From: a virus
Virus record (IMG/VR): IMGVR_UViG_3300013233_000579
Span: 1 to 25,997 of that record
Length of the DNA: 25,997 bases
Strand: one strand, 5' to 3'
Each line of letters starts with the position of its first letter. The stretch's first letter is position 1. Shown here in pieces: positions 2,752 to 18,816 of the stretch. The notes beneath the pieces were generated by a model. The model worked only from the letters and a program-made list of their open reading frames with translations, did no database searches and was not told the origin of the DNA. Made by a program: the position numbers and the translations under genes.

Positions 2752-5700
2752 TTACCTCTGTAATGCAGCAATTGCGTTGGTCTGGCGCGTCGTTGCGTCT
2801 GCTATTTTGTCGCCCACGGTAACGGCCAGGAGGCGCGTTTCGGCGGCAAGAATATTGATCTGCCGGATAGTCTCGTCGGCTTGTTCAGCGCTGGGCGGCG
2901 GCACGGGCGGGATCACTGGTATGGGCTTGATCGGACCTGTCGTGCCGAGGCCCAGTGGTTTTGGCAGCGGCACGAACGGGATCACGTTGGATGGCCCAGA
3001 AGGTTGCGGCAGCGGGCCTACGAATTGCCCGCCTGGGAACTGCGGAAGGCCAGTGGGATCGGTATTGGCTATGATCTGGCGCAGCAGGTCGTTTGCGGTG
3101 CCCTGGGCGTTGACTACTTGGCCGAGGAGGTCGATGTCCTGGGTGACGCTGGGGAGCACGTTTTTGAAGAAGGGCGCGAGTTGATCCCTCAGGTCTGGCG
3201 CGAGCGCATTGACCGCCGTCTCCAAGATGTCTAGCGAGCTGGTAGCATCAGCAGACGTCACAGCAGTCTCTACTGCACGTAGGAGAGGCGTCAGGGTCGT
3301 ACCGATGTCAGGAGGCAGGCCGGCTATCCGGGATTCAAGCGAATCGTTTATCAAGCTGTTGGCATCGCGGATGCTGCCCAGGTCTACACCGAGGCGGCCG
3401 GCCAGACCAGACAGGTTCGCGCCCAGGGTCTGGGCGACGTCGGCGAGTGAAAGCGTGGTAGATAGTGTGAGGTCTTCCAGGTTGACGCCGAGTGCGGCGA
3501 CGAAATCCTGGAGGGGCACGCCCAGATCGTGTGCCAGATCGAGGATCGACTGCCCTGTCGCATCGGCCAGATCACGCAGATTCGCAGCAAGCGACAGGGC
3601 TATATCGCGTTCCTGGCTGGCACGTTGCTGCGCCAGCAGACGATCGCGCTCGGCTATCAATGCCGCCAGGTCCTCGGCGTTGACTGTGCCTCCCGTCTGC
3701 GGCCCGAGGCCGATATTGGCGCCCACGCCTGTCCTCGCTGCGCCGGCGTCTGTGATGCCTCGTAATGCGCCCGTCACCCGGGTAAAAATGTCCTGGAAAC
3801 CGCCGCTACTGGCGAAGAAATCACGCGCCTGGCCGAGGAATGCCTGAGCCACCTGGGGCAGCTTGTTGATGGCCGCGGCGTCGCCGCCCTGGGCGGCTTT
3901 GAGGGTTTCGTCGAATTGGCGCTTGGCTTCGTCGAGGCGCTGGCGCGGGGTCAGGGGCGACAGGTTGCCGAGCACCAAGGAATCGAGGAAATCCTTGATG
4001 CGCTGGATGTTGGCCAGCTCCTGGCCGAGCTGGGTGGTACGGGCCTGGCCGATGCCGGATATGCTGTTGCGCTGGGCTGTGTCTATTGCATTGATCTGGT
4101 CGTTGATCTGGCTCAGGCGGTCGGTGCCAAATAGTTGGTCGATCTGGCTGCTGACGGTGTCGGTCAGGGCGGCGATCAGGGCCTCGGCGCGCTGGGCGGC
4201 GAGTTGCTGGATCTGGGCGAGGTCGGACTGGCTGGCGCCGAGTGCTATGGCTGCCCGTGTGGTGTCGTTCATCTTGCGGGCGATGTCGCGCATTCCGCGC
4301 TGGAAATCGGTCAGGCGGTTGGCGTCCAGGGCGTCGGTTACGCCTTGTAGCAGGTCGGCGAGGTCCGCGGCACGGGCCTGTGTCAGCTCGCGGATCTGGC
4401 CGCTCTCCAAGGCGCGAATGCGGGCCAGCTCTTCTTCGGATGCGCCCAGATCCGTGGCACGTTGCAGGGTGTCTGCGGTGGCGCGCTGGATGCGCAGGAC
4501 CGCGGCTTCGTAGTCCGATAGCCCGAGATCTTGTAGGCTATTTCCTACACCGCGCAGCAGGCCGGCGAGGTCTTTCTGGCGCTGGATCTCGTCGGCCGTG
4601 AGCTGGCCTGTGGTGCCCAGGGCGTCGTTGAGTTGGCCTTGCAGGTCTACGACCACGCCGAGGGCTTGTGCTGCCTGCAGCCACTGCACGACGGCATCCG
4701 GGGCTAAGTCTCCGGCCAGGGCGGTCTCGAACGCGGCGCGGAATTGATCCTTGGTGGTGTCGGCGGCGAGGCCGAGGGCTGCGAGCTGGCTTTCCAGGGC
4801 CGGGCGCAGCGCTTCGATCTGTGATTGGAGCAATTCCGTGTTGCTGAAAAAGCTGGTGAAATAGCTCTGCCACAGCGACGCTGCATTGTCGATCCCGCCG
4901 GCGGCGTCGGCGATGTCGGAGGCGAAGCGCACCAGCATTTCGCGGGTGCCGTCGAATGCGATGCCGGCGGTGTTGAGCGCGGCTTCGTAAAGGGCGGTGG
5001 CGGCGGTGAGGCGGTCATACACCTGGGCCAATGTCTCGCCTTCCTTGCGCAGTTGCTCGGATATCCGCAGGTTGGCTGCTAAAGTCGTGTCCGGGCCCAG
5101 CAGCGCGGTGCCTGCTGTCACGCGTGAGCGGATATCCAGGGCGGTGCTGAGCGTTGCAATCTGCGCTTCCAGATCGCCACCGAACGCGTGTATGGCATCA
5201 CGGATTGGGTTGACCACCCGGGGTACGTCAATGGAGGCGATCTCGCCACCGAAATCGCGCAAGAGCGCCACCGTGCCGTCCACCACGTCAAAACTGCTCA
5301 CGATCGCGTCGAAGCGATCCTGCAGTATGTTTGCGAGTGTTATATCTCCTTTCTTGAACTGCTGCACCAAGCCGTCGAGCGCACCAGAAACGCTGGCGAT
5401 TTCGTCGGGCGTCAGAAATTCTGCTATCGATGCATCAAACGCCTGCAGCGCGTCGATGATCTGCTGTTGGATGTCATCCGTTATCCGTCTGAAATCGATG
5501 CCTACAAGACCCAATCCAGTCGCGAATACAGATTCTCTGCCGGTGGCTTCCGAACCCGATCCCACGCGAACGCGAGGTGTTTTTCCGCGCCCGAACAGGC
5601 CACCAATCGCACCGATGATCCCGCCGATCAGGGCGCCAAAACCACCGCCTATTTGCCCGCCTACCTGTGCGCCTGTTGCGCCTCCGCGTATCGGTCCCTG

Positions 5701-8124
5701 GCCGATGCCCAGACGACCCAATGCACTGTCCGAGTTGACGCCGCCCACCCGACCTCCGCCGATGCCAAAATCACTGTTTTGCCCCGAGCCGCCGATAAAA
5801 TCAACACCGTTAAATGCTCCGAACCCGCCTTGTATATCCTGGCTGGCACGGCCGAACTCATCGACCAAACTACGCAGGCTGAACTGCCCATCACGGAAAA
5901 ACTGTTCCCACATGTCTGCGCCAGCGCCTGAGAAATCATCCATGGTGCGCTTCATCTCTTCTTCGGAATCGCTCAAGCACTGGGCTACTTCCGTCGTCGA
6001 TTTACAACCAGCATCCTTGGTATCGGCAAAGTCGTTTTGCAGGTCAGACAGCGTGGTGCGGAGTTTGAATAACTGCCGTACTTCAGCCTCGGTGGCTTTG
6101 GCGTTGAACTGGCTGCCGGCAGCCATTGCGAGTGCTGCTCGGCGAGCGACTTCGCGGGCGATGGCCAATTCGCGTACGGCATCCGCGCCTTTGAGTTGTG
6201 CGATGATATCGGCCTGCAGCGTGCGGATTTCCTCAGCAGTCGATATGATCAGGTTTACGGATGCTTCTTTTGCTGCGCGCAATACGCGAGCTTTTTCTCG
6301 CAGCGCGGCTGTTGCGGCAGTGGTGGCTGCGGTTTCTTTTACTTGTGCCGAGCGCAATGCCGTGAGTTGGCGCTGCAGCTTGATGTTGGGGTCGAACAGA
6401 GCGTTAATGGCTTTTCGTTGTTTGTCGGTGGTCGCTGCATCTAGCGCTTTTTGACGGTCCAGCTCTAGTATTTGCGTCTTTGTTTTTCCGAAAACCTCGA
6501 TTGCGCGCTGCAGCGTGTCTGCTTGCTCTCGCATAGCGACTACTGCATCTTTAGTGATGCCTGAAGCTGCGGCAGTGGCCTTTATTTCAGCCTTTATTTG
6601 TTTTGCCAGGGTCTTGGTCGCCTTGCTTGCCAGGTCGGCGCTGATCTCATAATCGACCAAGCCGTCGATATTGGCGTCTATGGCTTTTTTGGCCGCGTTG
6701 GTTTCGCCGCGCAGGCGTTTGATCGCATCGGACAGGCTTTCCGATCGAACCGTGCCTGCGCGCAGCCTGTCGGCGAGTGCCTGTGTTGCAGCTGCTACTT
6801 TCTCCGAGCCTAAACTCTGTGCTTTGGCAATAAAGTCAAGCACGTCTGCCATCTTCGATTTGATCGACCCAATAAACAGCTCGAACCCCTTGCTCATCGC
6901 TGCAACGGCGACGTTGAAACCGAACTTCATTTCTTCCCAGGCTTTAAGCAAACCATCGACCAGCGCCAACCCAGCAAGCCGAGCCTGAAGAAACTGGTCG
7001 CGCAATATAGCACCGCCCTGCCATCCGGCGATACCCGCAAAGACGACCAACGCTGCACCATTCAGCGTCGTAAATGCGAGTGTAGCGGAACGTGCGGCTG
7101 TCGCTGTCGCAGTAATGCCAAGCTCTGCTGCGATAGACCTAGACACAAGCACTGACAGGGCGCTGGACAACAGTCTCGTCGCCAACGCAGCGCCCCTTGT
7201 GGCCAGCGCATAAGCAATCACTACCTTTGTCGCCCTGATTGCCACATCGATTATGGCGTCCAGATTCTGAGCGATGCTCTGAATGATGTCTGCCAGTTCC
7301 CTACTCGCCCCTGACGCCTGACTGGCCTGGCCGATGAACCGTTCCCAGGCGTTGCTGAGCTGGGTGACCGAGCGTTCAACGGTTAGCGGCAGCTTGCTGA
7401 ACTGTTCACCGATCACCTGCGCCTGCTGGGTCAATGCATCGATGATGATCTTGGTAGTCAGCTGGCCTTGGTTCGCCATTTTGCGCAGGGTGCCGATGTT
7501 GACGTTGAGGCTGTCTGTGAGCGCCTGGACGATGCGGGGAGACTGTTCCATTACAGAGCGGAATTCGTCGCCGCGCAACACGCCGGACGCCAGGGCCTGG
7601 CTGAGTTGGATGACGGTGTTGCGCGCTTCGGCGCCTGTGGCGCCGGATACGGCGAATGCCTGATTGATGGTTTCAGCGACGGCTACGGATTTTTCGACAT
7701 TGCCGTCCAGCGCACGGGCCAGGCGTTGGAATAGCGTTGTAGTGGCTTCGAGCGATGTGGACGTGCGCTGGCTGACGGCGAAAACGCCTTTCTGGGCCGC
7801 AACAAAATCCTCGGCGCTGCGGGTGGAAATCTTGATGCGTGCCGATAGATTGGCGTATTGATCGGCATTGCGTATCAGGCCGCGGACCGCGCCCAGGCCT
7901 GCTTGCGCGCCGATGAATCCAAGCACCAGGCGTTTGGCGGACTGTAGTTGTTTTTCTAGCCCTGAAACGCCTTTGGACGCCTTGTTAAATCCGCGTTGTG
8001 CTTTGCTGCCGGCGGCGTCGGATGTATTGCCCAGGCCGATGATGTCGCCCTTGACTTTGATCACTTCGGCCTTGAGGCCGCTGCCGTCCGCTTTGAGGCG
8101 TAATGTGACTACCGGGTCGCTCAT
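2752..8124 (-). CDS. Tail tape measure protein (1790 aa)
   Basis: This protein spans the tail lumen and sets tail length. Residues about 60-265 form the classic tape-measure domain, including SQALASGVLRGDEFRSVMEQ and the QLSNAWERFIGQ exit. Hydrophobic segments follow at about 300-375, typical of the part that helps DNA cross the inner membrane. Residues 701-765 (two Cys, then MDDFSGAGADMWEQFFRDG) resemble the region that normally lies near the C-terminus of such proteins, and a Gly-rich hydrophobic stretch follows at 780-846. About 940 more residues come after it, with a 69-residue tandem repeat, LGV-type pseudo-repeats (1528-1585) and a Pro-rich linker (about 1689-1747). ATG 8124 has only a weak AGATAAG upstream. 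At 1790 residues it is much longer than the lambda tape measure. Confidence 0.95.
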   Translation of the reverse strand: MSDPVVTLRLKADGSGLKAEVIKVKGDIIGLGNTSDAAGSKAQRGFNKASKGVSGLEKQLQSAKRLVLGFIGAQAGLGAVRGLIRNADQYANLSARIKISTRSAEDFVAAQKGVFAVSQRTSTSLEATTTLFQRLARALDGNVEKSVAVAETINQAFAVSGATGAEARNTVIQLSQALASGVLRGDEFRSVMEQSPRIVQALTDSLNVNIGTLRKMANQGQLTTKIIIDALTQQAQVIGEQFSKLPLTVERSVTQLSNAWERFIGQASQASGASRELADIIQSIAQNLDAIIDVAIRATKVVIAYALATRGAALATRLLSSALSVLVSRSIAAELGITATATAARSATLAFTTLNGAALVVFAGIAGWQGGAILRDQFLQARLAGLALVDGLLKAWEEMKFGFNVAVAAMSKGFELFIGSIKSKMADVLDFIAKAQSLGSEKVAAATQALADRLRAGTVRSESLSDAIKRLRGETNAAKKAIDANIDGLVDYEISADLASKATKTLAKQIKAEIKATAAASGITKDAVVAMREQADTLQRAIEVFGKTKTQILELDRQKALDAATTDKQRKAINALFDPNIKLQRQLTALRSAQVKETAATTAATAALREKARVLRAAKEASVNLIISTAEEIRTLQADIIAQLKGADAVRELAIAREVARRAALAMAAGSQFNAKATEAEVRQLFKLRTTLSDLQNDFADTKDAGCKSTTEVAQCLSDSEEEMKRTMDDFSGAGADMWEQFFRDGQFSLRSLVDEFGRASQDIQGGFGAFNGVDFIGGSGQNSDFGIGGGRVGGVNSDSALGRLGIGQGPIRGGATGAQVGGQIGGGFGALIGGIIGAIGGLFGRGKTPRVRVGSGSEATGRESVFATGLGLVGIDFRRITDDIQQQIIDALQAFDASIAEFLTPDEIASVSGALDGLVQQFKKGDITLANILQDRFDAIVSSFDVVDGTVALLRDFGGEIASIDVPRVVNPIRDAIHAFGGDLEAQIATLSTALDIRSRVTAGTALLGPDTTLAANLRISEQLRKEGETLAQVYDRLTAATALYEAALNTAGIAFDGTREMLVRFASDIADAAGGIDNAASLWQSYFTSFFSNTELLQSQIEALRPALESQLAALGLAADTTKDQFRAAFETALAGDLAPDAVVQWLQAAQALGVVVDLQGQLNDALGTTGQLTADEIQRQKDLAGLLRGVGNSLQDLGLSDYEAAVLRIQRATADTLQRATDLGASEEELARIRALESGQIRELTQARAADLADLLQGVTDALDANRLTDFQRGMRDIARKMNDTTRAAIALGASQSDLAQIQQLAAQRAEALIAALTDTVSSQIDQLFGTDRLSQINDQINAIDTAQRNSISGIGQARTTQLGQELANIQRIKDFLDSLVLGNLSPLTPRQRLDEAKRQFDETLKAAQGGDAAAINKLPQVAQAFLGQARDFFASSGGFQDIFTRVTGALRGITDAGAARTGVGANIGLGPQTGGTVNAEDLAALIAERDRLLAQQRASQERDIALSLAANLRDLADATGQSILDLAHDLGVPLQDFVAALGVNLEDLTLSTTLSLADVAQTLGANLSGLAGRLGVDLGSIRDANSLINDSLESRIAGLPPDIGTTLTPLLRAVETAVTSADATSSLDILETAVNALAPDLRDQLAPFFKNVLPSVTQDIDLLGQVVNAQGTANDLLRQIIANTDPTGLPQFPGGQFVGPLPQPSGPSNVIPFVPLPKPLGLGTTGPIKPIPVIPPVPPPSAEQADETIRQINILAAETRLLAVTVGDKIADATTRQTNAIAALQR
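3370..3543 (-). repeat. LGV-type pseudo-repeats inside the tape measure
   Basis: Residues 1528-1585 contain four related units: LAHDLGVPLQDF, VAALGVNLEDL, VAQTLGANLSGL and AGRLGVDLGSI. The spacing of hydrophobic residues suggests short amphipathic helices. Similar helical units occur in other long tape-measure proteins. Confidence 0.55.
4159..4572 (-). repeat. Tandem 69-residue repeat inside the tape measure
   Basis: Residues 1185-1253 and 1254-1322 of the tape measure align end to end. DLAGLLRGV, LSDYEAAVLRIQRA, DLGASEEELARIRAL in the first copy match DLADLLQGV, LTDFQRGMRDIARK, ALGASQSDLAQIQQL in the second. The copies are diverged, so this is an old duplication. It is predicted to be alpha-helical. 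Confidence 0.7.
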
Positions 8125-8152
8125 TACTTATCTGCGTGGCTGGTGAGTGGAT

Positions 8153-8174
8153 GCGGCGCCATGGTAGGCGCCGC
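8153..8174 (-). other. 8-bp perfect hairpin between lipoprotein and tape-measure genes
   Basis: GCGGCGCC and GGCGCCGC form a perfect 8-bp stem around a 6-base loop in the 64-base gap between the two genes. No T-run follows on either strand, so it is not a standard intrinsic terminator. It could protect an RNA 3' end or damp read-through into the tape measure. Confidence 0.6.
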
Positions 8175-8188
8175 TGCTTGTTGCCCGA

Positions 8189-8911
8189 TTACGGCGGCGG
8201 TGGATCCGCGGGTGGCGGGGGTGGCGGCGTTACCGGGTTGTCGTGTCGGTTATCGTTGTCACGGTTGGATCCATTGTCGTGGCTGTGATCATCCACGCTG
8301 TGATCATCGATGCTGTGGTCGTCCGTATCACCGACGCGCCCGCTCTGTCCGGACAGGTCGTCATTGCCCACGTCTTTACCGTCCGACTCTATGCGACCGC
8401 TGTTCTGGTTTTGCTGATTGCCGGCGATGCGTGGACCATCACCATTTGCGTCACCGATTACCGCGTGATCGCCAATATGCGTGCCGGAATCGATCTGGCT
8501 GTCATGCCGATCCACGGTTCGCACGCTGCGGTTGCTGCTGTCGTTAAACGAATCGCGGTAGGTGGGCCGGCCGAGTTCGTTGACTGCCTTGTAGAGCACT
8601 GCACCGGTAATTACATTCGAGATTGCAGCGCTGCCCTCTCGAATCATCGACCCTACTGTTTCATGTTGCATTGGGCGGATTGAGGTATCCGCCACCTTAC
8701 TGCCTCCGCAGCGCACGGACAGTTCGTGCACGCCTTTCAGTTCGATGGTTTCGCCGGGGTTGGCGGCGAGCGTGAAACAGGGCGCGCTTGCCGCCTCTGC
8801 CTGTGCGCGTGCGGTGTTGGCCTGGGCATTGTAATAGGCTGTTTCTGCTTCCGGGCTGATGCTGGCACAGCCGGCAAAGACTGCGACCAAGATAAAAATC
8901 AGGATTCTCAT
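8189..8911 (-). CDS. Signal-peptide lipoprotein with His/Asp-rich and polyproline tail (240 aa)
   Basis: The start ATG 8911 overlaps the stop of the tail-chaperone extension frame (ATGA). Residues 1-15 are a lipoprotein signal (MRILIFILVAVFAGC) with lipid attachment predicted at Cys15, and Ala at the next position favours the outer membrane. Residues 20-45 are Ala-rich. Residues 195-225 are a low-complexity His/Asp segment built on repeated DDHS units, and the chain ends in a polyproline tail (TPPPPPPADPPPP). An exported lipoprotein is out of place between the tail chaperone and the tape measure. It could act on the cell surface during infection, for instance in superinfection exclusion, but nothing in the sequence proves this. 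Confidence 0.8.
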   Translation of the reverse strand: MRILIFILVAVFAGCASISPEAETAYYNAQANTARAQAEAASAPCFTLAANPGETIELKGVHELSVRCGGSKVADTSIRPMQHETVGSMIREGSAAISNVITGAVLYKAVNELGRPTYRDSFNDSSNRSVRTVDRHDSQIDSGTHIGDHAVIGDANGDGPRIAGNQQNQNSGRIESDGKDVGNDDLSGQSGRVGDTDDHSIDDHSVDDHSHDNGSNRDNDNRHDNPVTPPPPPPADPPPP

Positions 8912-9581
8912 GACGATAGCCTCTCGTTATGTATGCGGGCGACTTCGCCGCCCAGTGAACGCACGTTGTCTACGAGCGCGATGTTGCACGGATAATCCAG
9001 CAGCTTTGCCACTTGCCCGATATCGCTCAGCGATACCGGGCCGGTGATGGTGGCGCCCGATGCCGTGGGGATCATGGTGTGGGTGCAGCGCATGTATACC
9101 TGTACCGTTTGCCAGTTGGCGGACAACACGTCGATGCTGTCCGCCGGTTTTTTGACCAGGCCGGCAGGGGCCCCGAATGCTTGCAGGTCCTTGTCGGCCT
9201 CATTGCTGCGCGGCCGCGTCAGTTCGTGCGCGACCGCTTGGAGTTTTTTGCGGCAGCGCCTGTGATGGAGATGAAGAACTGGTTGAAGGCAGCCATGGAG
9301 GTGAACAGATTGTCCTTGACCAATCGCAGCGCCTCGTCACGGGGATATGGCGCGCCCTGGTCATCGGCGACGCCTTCAACGCCAACCAGCACCTCATCGA
9401 GCACGTCGGAGATTTTCATCTCGCCATCGGCCATGTCGTCGGCCAGCGCCTGTGCGTTTGCGCGGTCCATATACCGGTATTCGGCGATGAACTTGTCGTG
9501 CGATTTCTTGTCCGGCGAGTCACCATCCGGCATGTCGACCTTGACGGTGACCTTGAACGTATCCTTTTTGACCAATTTCAT
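8908..9581 (-). CDS. Tail assembly chaperone, -1 frameshift extended form (gpGT-like, about 224 aa)
   Basis: After residue 113 of the short form, the -1 frame stays open without a stop from the slippery site to 8908, adding 111 residues (LQAVAHELTRPRSNEAD... through LSANWQTVQVYM to NERLSS). The extension has no well-placed start of its own: the only in-frame candidate nearby is a GTG at 9129 lacking a ribosome site. This is the organisation of lambda G/GT, where the T extension recruits the tail tube subunit. The frame continuity was checked codon by codon. Confidence 0.8.
9212..9249 (-). promoter_or_regulatory. Programmed -1 frameshift site with downstream stem
   Basis: On the minus strand the heptamer A AAA AAC (9249-9243) is in the correct phase for the chaperone frame (Ala111-Lys112-Asn113). 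Seven bases downstream GGTCGC (9235-9230) can pair with GCGGCC (9217-9212) across a 12-base loop, a usual position for a stimulatory stem. The heptamer is a canonical X XXY YYZ slippery sequence. Confidence 0.8.
9219..9581 (-). CDS. Tail assembly chaperone, short form (gpG-like, 120 aa)
   Basis: A 120-residue soluble protein starting at ATG 9581 with a strong AAGGAG nine bases upstream. It is charged and helical in its second half (RDEALRLVKDNLFTSMAAFN). It lies between the tail tube and tape-measure genes, which is where siphoviruses encode the chaperone that coats the tape measure during tail assembly. The last eight codons follow a slippery heptamer, so most ribosomes make this form and a minority continue in the -1 frame. 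Short chaperone length and location agree with lambda gpG. Confidence 0.8.
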   Translation of the reverse strand: MKLVKKDTFKVTVKVDMPDGDSPDKKSHDKFIAEYRYMDRANAQALADDMADGEMKISDVLDEVLVGVEGVADDQGAPYPRDEALRLVKDNLFTSMAAFNQFFISITGAAAKNSKRSRTN

Positions 9582-13381: not shown

Positions 13382-13876
13382 TTATCCTCCGAGGGCCTGC
13401 ACTGCGACGGCGTAGTCACAGTTGTTTTGGGTTGCGTAGATGGTTGCCTTGCGGTGTAGATCGAGACGCGCAGGATCTAGCGTTGCATTTGCCGGACCGT
13501 TGAATTCGATGCGCTGGCCGGCGTCGCCCTGGTCGGCCGATTTCTCGGCAAACTGGATCTGCTCGGGCAGTGATTCCAGGAATTCGCGCAGCGCGGCGTC
13601 CGGGGCTTGCTTGGCTTCGCCCTGGGCGAATGCCACCTGCTCGCCCTTGGTGGCGAGCTGGTCGAGCAGTTCGACGATCACGGGCTGATGGCGCGGCAGC
13701 ACTTTGCCGGCATCGGCCAGGCCTTCGGCGAAAGCGGTCAATTCGGCGCGGCGCTGGGTTGATTCCTTCGCTGCAAGGGCGTCTTCACGGCGTTGTATTT
13801 CAGCCGCCTGGTCGTCCAGCTCCTGTTTCTTCTGGGCGAATTCCACGGCTGTGGTGTTGTCTTTTGGTGCAGGCAT
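13382..13876 (-). CDS. Z: Internal in-frame scaffold product (Mu Z-like, 164 aa)
   Basis: Within the protease gene, codon 267 is an ATG (13876) preceded by AGGAGG (13890-13885) at an eight-base spacing, one of the best ribosome sites in the window. Starting there gives MPAPKDNTTAVEFAQKKQEL and exactly the scaffold half. In Mu the scaffold Z is made from the 3' part of gene I in the same way. The separate protein is inferred from the ribosome site and that precedent. Confidence 0.65.
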   Translation of the reverse strand: MPAPKDNTTAVEFAQKKQELDDQAAEIQRREDALAAKESTQRRAELTAFAEGLADAGKVLPRHQPVIVELLDQLATKGEQVAFAQGEAKQAPDAALREFLESLPEQIQFAEKSADQGDAGQRIEFNGPANATLDPARLDLHRKATIYATQNNCDYAVAVQALGG

Positions 13877-14674
13877 GTCTGTGCCCTCCTCTTTGACGAT
13901 ATCGGTTGATTCGGAAAATTCTCTCTTGGGTAGTGCGTTTTTGAGCCTCGCAAGTGAAACTCCCAAAACACGCGCAAAACCAGCCAGCCTCTTTTCTGGC
14001 GGTCGCGCAATCCGACCGTTCAGGATCTGCTCGACAGTGCCAGCGTCGATGCCTGCTTCCTTGGCCATGCGCCGAATGACATCTGCACGATCTCCTTTAT
14101 CGGAATCAATCAGTCCATTCAGCAGACGCGACAATTCTGTCTCTGCGAATTCAGGCGCACCGGAGTCCAAATGACCAACAAAAATCGCTCGCAATAGATC
14201 GATCGCTCGATCTGTAATGCTGTTTTTCGAATGGCCGGAAAACTCGATCACGACCGGCTGGTCGGTCTCGGCGAAATGCGCCTGATCGGGCAGGCCCTTG
14301 ATGGCCGGCGGCTGGGCGCCGAGATAGCCTACGTGGCGCAGGTAATAATGCCCCGGCGTAGGGTTGTTGGGATCATCGGGGGCGAACAGCGCGGCGCTGC
14401 GTTTTTTGTAGCGCCCCTCGGCCACGCCGTCGGCGAATGCCGGCATGACCTGTCGGCCCTGCATCCACAGCTCGCCCTTGTCGGCCGTGAGCGCGCCAAC
14501 CCAGCCGTATGCGGGCGCGTCTGTTTTAGGATGGCCGATGACAATGGGCGCCTCGTGCTTGGACGGATCGTAGCTGGCAGCGATGTCGGCGACGTCCTGG
14601 TCCGAGAACACATAGGTCTTGCCGTTGGCAGCCAGGTGCTGGCCGGCGCGGAATATCTGGATGGATTCAGGCAT
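13382..14674 (-). CDS. I: Prohead protease/scaffold (Mu gp32, I/Z-like) with inserted HTH segment (430 aa)
   Basis: The N-terminal 130 residues (MPESIQIFRAGQHLAANGKT, APIVIGHPKTDAPAYGWVGAL, GRYKKRSAALFAP, YYLRHVGYLGAQPPAIKGL) match the Mu protein I protease domain that matures the prohead. Residues 267-430 form a charged helical scaffold (residues 276-310 look like a coiled coil) ending LHRKATIYATQNNCDYAVAV. Between them, residues about 196-248 read as a lambda-repressor-like helix-turn-helix (RRMAKEAGIDAGTVEQILNG then RLAGFARVLGVSLARL), which is not part of protease or scaffold. ATG 14674 has no ribosome site but follows the late-promoter motif at a fixed 29 bases. It is the first gene of the second late operon. 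Confidence 0.9.
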   Translation of the reverse strand: MPESIQIFRAGQHLAANGKTYVFSDQDVADIAASYDPSKHEAPIVIGHPKTDAPAYGWVGALTADKGELWMQGRQVMPAFADGVAEGRYKKRSAALFAPDDPNNPTPGHYYLRHVGYLGAQPPAIKGLPDQAHFAETDQPVVIEFSGHSKNSITDRAIDLLRAIFVGHLDSGAPEFAETELSRLLNGLIDSDKGDRADVIRRMAKEAGIDAGTVEQILNGRIARPPEKRLAGFARVLGVSLARLKNALPKREFSESTDIVKEEGTDMPAPKDNTTAVEFAQKKQELDDQAAEIQRREDALAAKESTQRRAELTAFAEGLADAGKVLPRHQPVIVELLDQLATKGEQVAFAQGEAKQAPDAALREFLESLPEQIQFAEKSADQGDAGQRIEFNGPANATLDPARLDLHRKATIYATQNNCDYAVAVQALGG

Positions 14675-14703
14675 GGGTGGATTGTGCCCATGCGGGGATT
14701 TGT

Positions 14704-14724
14704 GTGGGAGTTAAGGGTTTTGCT
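14704..14724 (-). promoter_or_regulatory. Late-operon motif, copy 1 (PI-like position)
   Basis: The minus strand reads AGCAAA-A-CCCTTAACTCCCAC. A copy with one difference (C at the seventh base) lies at 24849-24869. This copy ends 29 bases before the start codon of the protease/scaffold gene. In Mu, late promoter PI lies upstream of gene I. A weak -10-like CACAAT occurs 17-22 bases after the motif. Confidence 0.6.
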
Positions 14725-14824
14725 TAGGTTTGGACGGGAACGGAGCAGATGGGGAGATCGTTTTTTTATCGTATCACCCGGAGCGGATTTGATCTAATGT
14801 GACGCACCGTTTGTCTGGTTCCTA

Positions 14825-14852
14825 TTGTATTGTGCTGATATATCTGTATAAT
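14825..14852 (+). promoter_or_regulatory. Sigma70-like promoter of the plus-strand cassette
   Basis: A perfect TATAAT (14847-14852) lies 16 bases after TTGTAT (14825-14830), in an AT-rich stretch about 30 bases before the first cassette gene. The -35 matches the consensus only in its TTG. It faces away from the minus-strand protease gene, so the cassette has its own, independent promoter. Confidence 0.6.
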
Positions 14853-14879
14853 AATAACCGTCAACAAACAAACAGGACC

Positions 14880-15314
14880 ATGAAAATGAACGCGCGGCAA
14901 TACAACGACATGTACAACGAAGGCGGGGAAGGATACAACCCTTGCCAACGCGAAGCCAGGCAGGTTGAATCATCGGCCACCAAGCAAGACCAGATAAGCG
15001 AGATATACCGCAAAATTGCTCGCGAATGCGGATCGGTTGCGTCAGAGTGCAAGAACACGGATAAAAAAAAGGCTGCCTATTACGAGCAGATCAAACAAAT
15101 CGAAGCGGAAATCGAGAAGGGATTTATCGAGGAGTGGACGTTAAGCGTTACTCAAAAACGCCGCCAGGAATGGAAGGCATTTGTGATGAGCGTGGTCAAT
15201 AAGGATGGCATGGTCGACAAAAATGGAATGGATAAAATCCACTCACACACGAGAGAGCAAGGATGGGGATTAGAAGAAGTCAAAAAAGCAGTGCAAATGC
15301 ACGGCATGACATAA
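14880..15314 (+). CDS. Unknown charged helical protein, first gene of plus-strand cassette (144 aa)
   Basis: The likely start is ATG 14880, or ATG 14886 two codons later; AGGA stands 3 or 9 bases before them, and the second spacing is the better one. The frame is open further upstream to 14799, but that part crosses the promoter. The protein begins MKMNARQYNDMYNEGGEGYN and is rich in Lys, Glu and Gln, with a probable helical or coiled-coil stretch (about residues 38-85) and no membrane segment. I do not recognise the family. Codons are AT-richer than in the flanking head genes, a sign of recent acquisition. It occupies the first slot of a cassette at the anti-CRISPR position of D3112-like phages, so an anti-defence role is possible but unproven. 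Confidence 0.75.
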   Translation: MKMNARQYNDMYNEGGEGYNPCQREARQVESSATKQDQISEIYRKIARECGSVASECKNTDKKKAAYYEQIKQIEAEIEKGFIEEWTLSVTQKRRQEWKAFVMSVVNKDGMVDKNGMDKIHSHTREQGWGLEEVKKAVQMHGMT

Positions 15315-15326
15315 GAGGCAATCACG

Positions 15327-15683
15327 ATGATTTTCGACGCAAACGGAAAATGGAAGCTATACACCACAACAATCCCAGCGGCAGGTAAGCCGCTTGGCAC
15401 AATCCGCAGAGACGTCGGCGACACAGGTGCGCTGGTGTTGATCGAGAACACTGGAGTCTATGTCCAGGTCAATGCCGGCGTAATCCGTTCGCTACCGCAA
15501 CGAGAGGTGAAACAGATTCTCGGCCAGAAAATCTGCGGCGGACGGCCTCGATTCGGAGATGAACCAATGAAAAAAATGACCGTTATGCTGGACCAGGAAA
15601 CCATCGCGGCAGCGCGGGAACTGGGCTGCGGAAACCTGAGCGCTGGATTGCGTCAGGCTGTTCAGCGGCTCAATAAATCGTAG
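15327..15683 (+). CDS. Ribbon-helix-helix-like DNA-binding protein with N-terminal extension (118 aa)
   Basis: ATG 15327 has AGAGG eight bases upstream and lies 12 bases after the previous stop, so the two genes form an operon. Residues 1-78 (WKLYTTTIPAAGKPLGTIRR, ALVLIENTGVYVQVNAGVIR) form a small beta-type domain ending in GGRPRFGDEP. Residues 81-118 (MKKMTVMLDQETIAAARELG then NLSAGLRQAVQRLN) fit a ribbon-helix-helix: one strand, a helix, a Gly-Asn turn, then a second helix. Such folds bind operator DNA as dimers (Arc, MetJ, CopG). An internal ATG at 15567 with its own GGAG could make the 38-residue domain alone. A role as the cassette's autoregulator is inferred. Confidence 0.75.
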   Translation: MIFDANGKWKLYTTTIPAAGKPLGTIRRDVGDTGALVLIENTGVYVQVNAGVIRSLPQREVKQILGQKICGGRPRFGDEPMKKMTVMLDQETIAAARELGCGNLSAGLRQAVQRLNKS

Positions 15684-15737
15684 CTTGACAAATCGAATTC
15701 GCCGGATAGAGTCGAAGACAAGGCTTCATGCCCTGAT

Positions 15738-15839
15738 GGACCTCAATAAACCCACATTCGTTTTTGGTCGGGAGGTCCGGTGTCGGTAACGCCCGGGGCT
15801 TGATCCATCAAGTATGAACCTCCCGACCATTCCTTTTTT
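15738..15839 (+). ncRNA. Candidate attenuator: terminator hairpin with competing pairing in antirepressor leader
   Basis: TGGTCGGGAGGT (15765-15776) and ACCTCCCGACCA (15818-15829) form a perfect 12-bp stem, followed closely by six T (15834-15839), so it can act as an intrinsic terminator. The 41-base loop holds a second perfect hairpin, CTTGAT-CC-ATCAAG (15799-15812), and a weaker one (GGTG/CGCC). Upstream, GGACCTC (15738-15744) is exactly complementary to GAGGTCC (15772-15778), which uses bases of the terminator's 5' arm. The two pairings exclude each other, as in attenuators and riboswitches. It lies between the RHH gene and the antirepressor start at 15859. The ligand or trigger is unknown. 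Confidence 0.55.
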
Positions 15840-15858
15840 CATATCGATGGAGCGCGAA

Positions 15859-16413
15859 ATGATAGAAGTTTCTTTTTTGAGCCAAACCATACAGATGGCC
15901 AGGATCGAGGATCGTCCGTGGGTGTTCATCGATGTCCTATGCGAGCATCTCGGTATCGATACGCGTCGACAGGTGCTCCGTATGCGCAGGCATCATGATC
16001 GTGCCGGGCTGGAGTTGCGTGCCGTCAGAGACCAGGGAAAGGTGAGGTTGGCCGTGCCGCTGGAAGAGATCAATTGGTTCTTGCGGACCTTGCGTCCCAC
16101 TCTGCCGGATACGATTGCGTGCCTGCGACGATACCGAGGTGGATTGTTCTGGTCTCTGCTGCATGCATGGATACGCGCGGTAGGTCAATACATGAGCTCG
16201 TGGCAATATATGCAGCGGATGGTAAAACTAGCGCCCAGGCAATCACCCGGTTATGCAAAACGGCAGAAGGGTATCGATTGCTCGATGGCCGAAGAAATGA
16301 AACAAATGAGGGCCGACGGGCATCCACTGGCAGAGATATCTTTGCGTTTCGGCTATTCTCCAACGACCATCAGTCTTGTAGTGCACGACAAATACCCCTG
16401 CCTGTCGCTGTAG
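15859..16413 (+). CDS. P22-type antirepressor N-terminal domain protein with C-terminal HTH (184 aa)
   Basis: The start is ATG 15859 with GGAG six bases upstream; an in-frame ATG at 15814 lies inside the terminator stem and is rejected. Residues 1-110 match the P22_AR_N pattern: VSFLSQTIQMARIEDRPWVF, LCEHLGIDTRRQVLRMRRH, AVPLEEINWFLRTLRP, and a closing YRGGLFWSLLHAW. This family inactivates phage repressors by direct binding (P22 Ant). Residues about 142-180 (AEEMKQMRADGHPLAEISLR then FGYSPTTISLVV) read as a helix-turn-helix, so the protein may also bind DNA. It ends a three-gene cassette and is separated from the RHH gene by the attenuator-like element. Confidence 0.82.
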   Translation: MIEVSFLSQTIQMARIEDRPWVFIDVLCEHLGIDTRRQVLRMRRHHDRAGLELRAVRDQGKVRLAVPLEEINWFLRTLRPTLPDTIACLRRYRGGLFWSLLHAWIRAVGQYMSSWQYMQRMVKLAPRQSPGYAKRQKGIDCSMAEEMKQMRADGHPLAEISLRFGYSPTTISLVVHDKYPCLSL

Positions 16414-16439
16414 GACCTTTAATAAAATACTTCTCTGAA

Positions 16440-16478
16440 AAGCGATACAAGGGGTAGGGTTGAGATTTTCGATCGCTT
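16440..16478 (-). terminator. Weak possible terminator of the first late operon
   Basis: AAGCGAT (16440-16446) and ATCGCTT (16472-16478) pair perfectly over a 25-base loop. On the minus strand the stem runs into TTTTC. It lies just after the G gene and before the oppositely oriented cassette, where a stop for the minus-strand transcript would be useful. The long loop makes it a weak candidate. Confidence 0.3.
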
Positions 16479-16509
16479 AAATCGGCGCTAACGCGGTCTA
16501 TGTCTTGCG

Positions 16510-16971
16510 TCAATTCGCCAGAAAATTATGTGCTGCCTGCAAAATCTCCCTGCGATCTTTGTCGGAGATGCCGAGGAACGGTCTGGCTGGGACGGCGGCC
16601 GGGCCCGGGGGCATGTCGGGAGTGCCGCCGAACTGGTGCAGGGCTGCCTGGATGGCGTTGACGCTGATGCCTGCGAAATCGTCACCGAAATCCGGCACGA
16701 TCCGGTTGAGCATGTGGCCGCGGGCTTGGAGGATGTTGAGTCGCTGGCCGTGGGCTCGTTTCCGGGCAAGGGTTTTTGGTTTAAGTGGCGCCCAGGGGGT
16801 GCCGTCCGGGGCTACTTCGAGCTGGAAGCGCTCGCGGGTGGTGCGGAACATTCCCTCGGAGATCGAGGCCATGAGGGGGCGCAGTTTGGTGGCTTTTTCG
16901 GTCAGGGTTGCGAACACCCGGTTGATCTCCGCATCGTCCAGTTCTATGGAGATCGTGAATTCCTTGCTCAT
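16510..16971 (-). CDS. G: Virion morphogenesis protein (Mu gp31, G-like, 153 aa)
   Basis: ATG 16971 shares its A with the stop of the preceding gene (TGATG). The protein contains RTTRERFQLEVAPDGTPWAP, LKPKTLARKRAHGQRLNILQ, and a C-terminal VPARPFLGISDKDRREIL. These are conserved marks of the phage virion morphogenesis family (Mu gpG and P2 gpS), which takes part in tail completion and head-tail joining. In Mu, gene G precedes I/Z directly; here the plus-strand cassette separates them. Confidence 0.92.
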   Translation of the reverse strand: MSKEFTISIELDDAEINRVFATLTEKATKLRPLMASISEGMFRTTRERFQLEVAPDGTPWAPLKPKTLARKRAHGQRLNILQARGHMLNRIVPDFGDDFAGISVNAIQAALHQFGGTPDMPPGPAAVPARPFLGISDKDRREILQAAHNFLAN

Positions 16972-17301: not shown

Positions 17302-18816
17302 TTATGGCTCGAAGTGGAACAAAACGCCGAGCACCAATTGTAACAACTCCACGTCTGAACGGTGCATTAACGCCAGGTTTTCCGGTTTGTCGGCGAGCAC
17401 ATACTGGAACGCCATGGTCAGCACTTCACGCGCCGGACGATCACCGCCATATTCCCTGCCGAAATACGGATTCAGATATTTGTCCGGCCGTGCCAATTCC
17501 TGCCTGTATCGGTCGTCATGCATCAACCTGCTTAGCAATTGCAGATTTTCATCAGCCGTACGCCGCCGGTGCAGTTGCTGGAATAGTTCGTCCAGCGCGG
17601 GGATCGCCTTCTGGATGCGATGCATGAATTCGTGCATCGCATTGCGCGGGTCACGCACCACCAGGTAGCCTTCTCCTGCATGGAACGTAACTGCCCCGAA
17701 TCCTTTTACGGTGACTCTCGCGCCTTCTGGCGCATCGCCGAACAACAGCGTCGTCGCGCCACCGCGTGATTGTTTCATCTTGACGTGCAGGGCCCCAAAC
17801 TCATCGGCCAGGGCAGTCCAGGTATCCGGCAACAACTGGCTGGCCTCGCGCACCAGCCTGGCGCCTTTGCCGCCATTTGCTATTTTGGCCGCGGTGCCGA
17901 TCGGGCGCACCAGGGGCAGGCGATCGCGGATGCGGCGGCGCAGTTTCAGGCCGAAATCCGGGGCGGCCGGGTCCAGGCCGTTGCTCAGTTCGTCCACCCA
18001 GCGATCGCCTGCAGCGAGATAGTCGTCCAGGTTTTTTGGACGGGCTTCGACGGTGTTGACGGATTTGCGCAGCCGGTCGGCCAGCGCGGTGTCCATGGTT
18101 TGTGCTTTCTTCAGCATCAGCGCCTGGACGCGCTTGTCCACGGGCGCGCCCGGGGTGAAATCAAATCCCGGGTCGATGCCTTTCGGCACCTGGTGTACTT
18201 CGCCTGTGACTTTGTCCACGAATTCCCGGCTGCCGTCGGTGGGGGCTTTGTCCGGACCTTTTTTGCCCAGACGCTCCAGGTCCCGCTTGCCCAGGGCGGT
18301 GACGCTGCACTGGCATCCCCAGCCGTTGGGCGGGTAATGGGTGCGCCACCAGGGATTGTCGTGGCGCAGGATCAGACCATCCCAGGAGACGTGCAGCGGC
18401 CGGGGGTTGGCCACGGCGTCGCTGTGGTGGTATTGCCACCAGGGGCGCAGGGAGAGCAGATCCGGATCCGTGAGCTGGCGGAAACGGCCGGCGGCATAGG
18501 CGCCGCGCAGGTTGGTCTCGTAGATGATGCGGGTGCGCCAACCGCGGCCGCCGTTGAAGCTCCAACCGTGACGCGCGACGATGCTGTCGAAGTCCTTGCG
18601 GAATTCCTCCAGCGTGGTGCCGCGGCTGATTGCTTTGTCTATCGCGTCGCGGAAGTCCTGGATCACGTCGGCTCGCTGGGCGCCGGCGACCATGAAGGCG
18701 ACGTTGTGCGCTTCTCGCCATACGTCTGCCCAGCGTGCCGTGGGCACGTTGATCTTGGAGCGGAAGAAATCGAGCGCTTCCTGGAATGGGCCAAAGGTGA
18801 TGTCAATGGAGCGCAT
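17302..18816 (-). CDS. F: Mu F-like minor head protein (gp30) with C-terminal zinc-metallopeptidase-like domain (504 aa)
   Basis: Residues 1-215 are the Mu F/SPP1 gp7-type head morphogenesis domain: GTTLEEFRKDFDSIVARHGW, RIIYETNLRGAYAAGR, PWWRTHYPPNGWGCQCSVTA (a conserved Cys-containing end). In these phages the protein sits near the portal and some copies enter the host with the DNA. Residues about 345-475 form an added domain with a classic zinc motif, H395-E396-F-M-H399, in NAMHEFMHRI, and a possible third ligand Glu464 in the helix REVLTMAFQYVL. This suggests a metallopeptidase effector fused to a packaged protein. ATG 18816 starts six bases after the portal stop. Confidence 0.9.
   Translation of the reverse strand: MRSIDITFGPFQEALDFFRSKINVPTARWADVWREAHNVAFMVAGAQRADVIQDFRDAIDKAISRGTTLEEFRKDFDSIVARHGWSFNGGRGWRTRIIYETNLRGAYAAGRFRQLTDPDLLSLRPWWQYHHSDAVANPRPLHVSWDGLILRHDNPWWRTHYPPNGWGCQCSVTALGKRDLERLGKKGPDKAPTDGSREFVDKVTGEVHQVPKGIDPGFDFTPGAPVDKRVQALMLKKAQTMDTALADRLRKSVNTVEARPKNLDDYLAAGDRWVDELSNGLDPAAPDFGLKLRRRIRDRLPLVRPIGTAAKIANGGKGARLVREASQLLPDTWTALADEFGALHVKMKQSRGGATTLLFGDAPEGARVTVKGFGAVTFHAGEGYLVVRDPRNAMHEFMHRIQKAIPALDELFQQLHRRRTADENLQLLSRLMHDDRYRQELARPDKYLNPYFGREYGGDRPAREVLTMAFQYVLADKPENLALMHRSDVELLQLVLGVLFHFEP

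Follow-up and report, generated by a model that had tools for sequence, protein, structure and literature searches.

The antirepressor gene ant of phages P1 and P7 is silenced at the level of translation by the C4 antisense RNA, which base-pairs with the ant mRNA around the ribosome-binding site, and phage P22 has a small RNA, sar, that likewise prevents translation of an antirepressor (PMC12197685). The annotation of the P1 record gives the order a1-b1-c4-a2-b2-icd-ant, in which the a and b sites pair with an element in the second stem-loop of the RNA (b') and with an element in the linker following it (a'). In the D3112 record, the interval between G (orf29) and the protease (orf33) is occupied by AcrF2 (orf30), orf31 and orf32, which agrees with an earlier note on the DNA studied here that had named the corresponding interval as an anti-CRISPR position. 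The acr region of such phages was described as low in GC and variable (PMC4378225).

The DNA studied here, referred to as the window, spans a virus record of 25,997 bp from end to end, and this record is possibly a fragment. Its portal is 53% identical to the portal of Pseudomonas phage B3, and the late genes on its minus strand follow the Mu-like order of terminase, portal, F, G, protease, scaffold, major head protein and tail genes; the phage is a B3-like Mu siphovirus. Neither a repressor nor a transposase gene was recognised in these 25,997 bp, as expected if the early region has been cut off. The interval of interest is bordered on the left by the I/Z head maturation protease (13,382–14,674, minus strand; phrog_976, E 8.5e-90) and on the right by the Mu G homologue (tail completion/Neck1; 16,510–16,971, minus strand; Phage_tail_S, E 1.3e-29). 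The protease/scaffold protein (13,382–14,674) showed a Cro/C1-type HTH match (HTH_31, E 3e-6, residues 201–243), which is unusual for a head maturation protease. The F homologue (17,302–18,816) carries a C-terminal extension (residues ~387–496) that goes beyond the Mu F domain and matches other PHROG families (phrog_33618).

Three plus-strand genes (14,880–15,314, 15,327–15,683 and a third ending at 16,413) were found between the minus-strand G and I/Z genes, as the earlier note had described. Its statement that this cassette is AT-richer than its surroundings holds as well, because the GC content of the 1,835-bp G-to-protease interval is 50.8% against 59.1% for the record and falls below that of all 820 same-size sliding windows elsewhere in it. 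The whole interval gave no match in a nucleotide search of phages. From the features described below, the cassette probably carries a C4-type (P1 immI-like) antisense-RNA/antirepressor switch in an accessory slot between head genes, and what is best supported in it appears to be a switch of lysogeny and not an anti-CRISPR operon.

A 67-nt stretch separating genes 2 and 3 that was absent from the earlier note (15,765–15,831, plus strand) was predicted to be a C4-like antisense RNA; when 2 kb were searched, it scored 33.0 bits (E 1.5e-4) against the Rfam c4-2 model. The predicted fold consists of a 12-bp closing stem (TGGTCGGGAGGT/ACCTCCCGACCA) and two stem-loops joined in a three-way junction, with a free energy of −36.7 kcal/mol and a z of −4.66, and none of 200 shuffles was as stable. 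The stem is followed by CCTTTTTT, and this T-run is likely to be the terminator that ends the C4-like RNA. The score did not reach the 41 bits set for c4-2 at gathering, so that no match was obtained at that level, and the classical C4 model (RF01695) had no match in the window up to E 10; neither of the two Rfam families, c4-2 and C4, includes the RNA at its threshold. When C4-like RNAs were searched in 32 related loci, including 13 of the 16 filled slots described below, none came over the gathering score, and a DNA pattern of the RNA core gave no match. Searches for c4-2 in 369 and in 20 genomes yielded no match, for the controls as well. No close relatives of the RNA or of gene 3 were found, and hence no covariation evidence was obtained.

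A sigma-70 promoter-like sequence TTGACA-16-TAGAGT (15,685–15,712, plus strand), which agrees with the consensus at 10 of 12 positions, lies ~50 bp ahead of the C4-like RNA and is the candidate promoter of the C4/ant unit. It is the sole promoter that passed the scan in 14,600–16,600; as chance alone would give 1.9 matches of this kind in that region, it counts only by virtue of its location. LexA-type operators were found near neither this promoter nor the putative promoter of gene 1 described below.

Short elements that could pair with each other were mapped in the RNA and on both its flanks, all on the plus strand. In the RNA, the second stem-loop contains the antisense element b' TCCATCA (15,804–15,810) and the linker after it contains the antisense element a' TATGAA (15,813–15,818), both in the same structural places as their counterparts in P1 C4. 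Upstream of the RNA, the target a1 TTCAT (15,725–15,729) is complementary to ATGAA of a' and stands in the order of a1 in P1, and the target b1 TGATGGA (15,734–15,740) can form seven Watson-Crick pairs with b' TCCATCA. Downstream, the target a2 TTCATA (15,838–15,843) can form six Watson-Crick pairs with a', and the target b2 GATGGA (15,846–15,851), which is the Shine-Dalgarno core of gene 3, six with b'. The order in the sequence is the promoter-like site, a1/b1, the predicted three-way-junction RNA and a2/b2, of which b2 is the ribosome-binding site of gene 3.

The pairing was assessed in a restricted test in which b' and a' were confined to their structural places by rules taken from P1, and in this test, designed after the pattern had been seen, the window scored 24. 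Placed at random in other sequence, the RNA reached this value in 2 of 20,000 trials. The scores were 29 for P1 and 25 and 27 for L129 and L130, respectively, two confident c4-2 RNAs with paired target sites on both flanks, and none of 20,000 placements reached any of these three; another confident c4-2 RNA (L131) scored 0 and had no paired sites. With a looser statistic, sites on both flanks were equalled in 1 of 3,000 shuffles, and when G-U pairs were allowed, in 28 of 6,000 real-sequence placements in the window from which the true site was not excluded. The downstream sites taken alone were equalled in 95 of 3,000 shuffles.

A long GC stem followed by CCTTTTTT is also the form of an intrinsic terminator, and one is to be expected downstream of gene 2; the hairpin at 15,765–15,831 would then merely end the gene 1–gene 2 operon, and the complementarity in the leader of gene 3 would be coincidental. 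This explanation is very unlikely because the two internal stem-loops fit the c4-2 three-way junction at E 1.5e-4, the RNA has paired sites on either side, arranged as in P1 (2 in 20,000), and the promoter-like site is found ~50 bp ahead of the hairpin.

Gene 3 (15,859–16,413, plus strand) encodes a 184-aa putative antirepressor with a P22_AR_N domain and a C-terminal HTH. Its start is most likely ATG 15,859 and not ATG 15,814, as judged from the Shine-Dalgarno sequence GATGGAG (15,846–15,852) that precedes the former and from the location of the latter inside the C4-like RNA. The N-terminus matched P22_AR_N with E 4.9e-6 and 27.1 bits against a cut-off of 30.7, and the C-terminus matched HTH_38 (E 3e-4) and also HTH_28. 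Weak similarity was seen with anti-repressor PHROGs (E 0.002–0.004) and with an annotated phage antirepressor, which at 24.5% identity (E 5e-3) was the one match of gene 3 when plasmid and phage collections were searched by protein. The AlphaFold model of the protein was poor outside residues 11–80; its Foldseek viral matches were Ant N-terminal and Bro-N models, in the low-confidence N-terminal half, and a PDB fold search gave no significant match. No close relatives of gene 3 were found in IMG/VR or in genome contigs by single-sequence search. All the features of a C4/antirepressor module that were tested were found, except that the antirepressor call stays slightly short of the Pfam cut-off.

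Bro-N-type proteins can bind DNA, and the HTH_38/HTH_28 matches in the C-terminus of gene 3 would also fit a transcription factor. In such a case the RNA would still control gene 3, and the product, with its P22_AR_N-like fold and HTH, would regulate the cassette or the late genes directly. We consider this unlikely, as the known C4-type RNAs in P1 and P7 control antirepressors and the N-terminal domain of gene 3 is of the Ant type. Gene 3 is taken here as a putative antirepressor, with a direct DNA-binding role as a live alternative.

By analogy with P1, we infer the existence of the RNA, its repression of gene 3 and the inactivation of a repressor by the gene 3 product; the repression is proposed to be the same because the layout is shared with P1. 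In a lysogen, the C4-like RNA would terminate at the stem and T-run that it carries itself, and its a' and b' elements would pair with a2 and b2, thereby blocking translation of the antirepressor and leaving the repressor active. The antirepressor would be made when C4 is short relative to its target or when an incoming phage of different specificity is present, and by inactivating a repressor it would tip the prophage to lytic growth. The switch proposed here would bring control of the C4 type to a transposable phage of the B3 kind, a link for which no earlier report was found in the open literature, a scope outside of which most subscription papers fall. The pairs of a' and b' with the a and b sites give a simple prediction for compensatory mutation.

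The G-to-I/Z slot was compared in 126 related loci (L numbers) collected from IMG/VR, phage records and bacterial genomes with the F or portal protein as query. G and the protease were located in them by iterated profile searches, and both were present in 99 loci besides the window. The gap between the two genes was 452 bp or less in 83 of these 99, and the slot was filled with 0.6–3 kb of cargo, varying by locus and found on either strand, in the other 16. The gene swapping in this interval that the earlier note had predicted is thus seen among the relatives, and the slot is an accessory site. The cargo included a TIR-domain protein in a Glaciimonas prophage (L071, 10,197–10,889, minus strand; TIR_2, E 1e-13), which is possibly a phage-borne defence gene, SDH-type (ClpP-like) serine proteases in two different hosts (L060, 2,544–3,635; L083, 10,349–11,311), an AAA protein (L127) and Cro/C1-type HTH proteins (L002, L066 and L120). 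The slot of L003 contained a Bro-N antirepressor-like gene (7,766–8,557, plus strand) on the late-gene strand, with no C4 match even at a loose threshold. The remaining filled slots include cargo of unknown kind, one cargo was common to L015 and L016, and no gene shared with the window was found in any of the 16 filled slots.

In the slot that L015 shares with L016, an sRNA-Xcc1 (RF02221, 69.5 bits) was observed at 9,189–9,276 of L015 on the minus strand. It lies upstream of small unknown ORFs on the same strand (8,951–9,160 and 8,456–8,938) and makes up a second RNA-plus-genes cassette in the slot.

Because the cargo is so varied (TIR, SDH-type protease, AAA, HTH), the position in the slot is by itself weak evidence for an anti-CRISPR. 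The G-I/Z interval, familiar above all as the place of anti-CRISPR genes in Mu-like phages of Pseudomonas, would also admit an antirepressor controlled by a C4-like RNA, and with such cargo there, location in the interval should not count as evidence of anti-CRISPR function.

The first two genes of the cassette were analysed for a role of this kind. Gene 1 (14,880–15,314, plus strand) is an ORF with AGGA ahead of its ATG, and it encodes a 144-aa charged helical orphan. The earlier note had given the cassette its own promoter; one for gene 1 and gene 2 is plausible on reading the sequence, since its −10 is a perfect TATAAT (14,847–14,852, plus strand), but it is weak, with only TTGTAT (14,825–14,830) as −35, and it fails the promoter scan. 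Gene 1 had no significant match in Pfam, PHROGs, NCBIfam, PADLOC, viral contigs, phages, plasmids or 369 genomes, and a single-sequence search of IMG/VR found no close relatives of it. Its AlphaFold model was mostly helix at a pLDDT of 64, which is not confident. A match of gene 1 in L141 was rejected as spurious as it falls in a dehydrogenase-like reading frame. The earlier proposal that gene 1 is a candidate anti-defence protein found no tie to any Acr or anti-defence family in the searched collections, and such a function is possible as one option among many.

Gene 2 (15,327–15,683, plus strand) encodes a 118-aa protein with an N-terminal 'GKW..TTIP..GKP.GTI.R..DTGALV' domain and a C-terminus that is ribbon-helix-helix-like as judged by sequence (CcdA, weak, E 0.17). 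It is 38% identical (E 6e-22) over nearly its full length to a 145-aa gene (3,959–4,396) of L143, a record without a match to the portal of the window, in which this relative is divergent from an adjoining gene named Cro/YdaS-like from its sequence. Furthermore, the N-terminal 65 aa are 48% identical to a prophage gene in L140. No acr genes were recognised near these relatives in L143 and L140. Close relatives of gene 2 were not found in IMG/VR by single-sequence search, nor was the gene found in plasmid and phage collections by protein search. The earlier note had called gene 2 a ribbon-helix-helix-like protein and a possible aca; the first part stands on the C-terminal resemblance, but the relatives are found in early or prophage regions without a recognised acr. 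As an Aca, gene 2 would have a ribbon-helix-helix-like C-terminus and not an HTH, and general libraries gave no match. Gene 2 looks like a phage early-region regulator, and it is probably a DNA-binding protein that regulates either the upstream promoter or the early region of the phage.

A small orphan gene followed by a DNA-binding-like gene could form an anti-defence operon as in D3112-like phages, with gene 1 acting against a host defence and gene 2 as its aca-type repressor. The slot is that of AcrF2 in D3112, and the insert is accessory and low in GC, a feature also described for the acr region of this phage group (PMC4378225). We hold an anti-defence operon to be quite unlikely: gene 1 resembles no known family in the searched collections, the orientation is opposite to that of the D3112 acr, the relatives of gene 2 lie in early or prophage regions without a recognised acr, and the slots of related phages also hold TIR, SDH-type protease, AAA and HTH genes. 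It is not strictly exclusive with the C4-type switch, which concerns the C4/gene 3 half of the cassette. Both could be combined if the slot hosts a self-contained RNA-gated conflict module, in which the C4-like RNA restrains an HTH-bearing antirepressor directed against resident or competing prophages and gene 1 is a new anti-defence protein under the control of gene 2. This combination is improbable; if true, one cassette would serve both inter-phage and host-defence conflict.

The switch proposed here was compared with the described systems. The acrF2 region of D3112 (Casadabanvirus) shares with the window the G-to-head-protease interval and its low-GC accessory genes, but in D3112 these genes have the orientation of the late genes and in the window the opposite one, and no gene or RNA was found in common. 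With P22 Ant (P22_AR_N) and sar, the window shares the Ant-type N-terminal domain and, as far as can be inferred for the window, a small RNA blocking antirepressor translation; however, sar is a different RNA and the protein similarity is weak (PHROG E 0.002–0.004). The c4-2 family (RF02944, clan CL00128) and the RNA of the window have in common the three-way junction, a first stem-loop of the form GGU...AACGCC and the T-run after the stem, whereas the window RNA reaches 33 against 41 bits and is without the conserved UAUGG and CCUAA strands, its closing stem being paired through instead. The window differs from immI of P1 and P7 (C4, icd, ant1/ant2) in having no icd between the RNA and ant, in a short putative antirepressor with a C-terminal HTH, in a 67-nt RNA that is unmatched by RF01695 and in the location of the module within a head-gene cluster. 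In both, a promoter, which is a candidate one in the window, is followed by a1/b1, the C4 or C4-like RNA and a2/b2, which cover the ribosome-binding site of the gene that comes next, and b' lies in the second stem-loop and a' in the next linker; an antirepressor, putative in the window, is encoded downstream.
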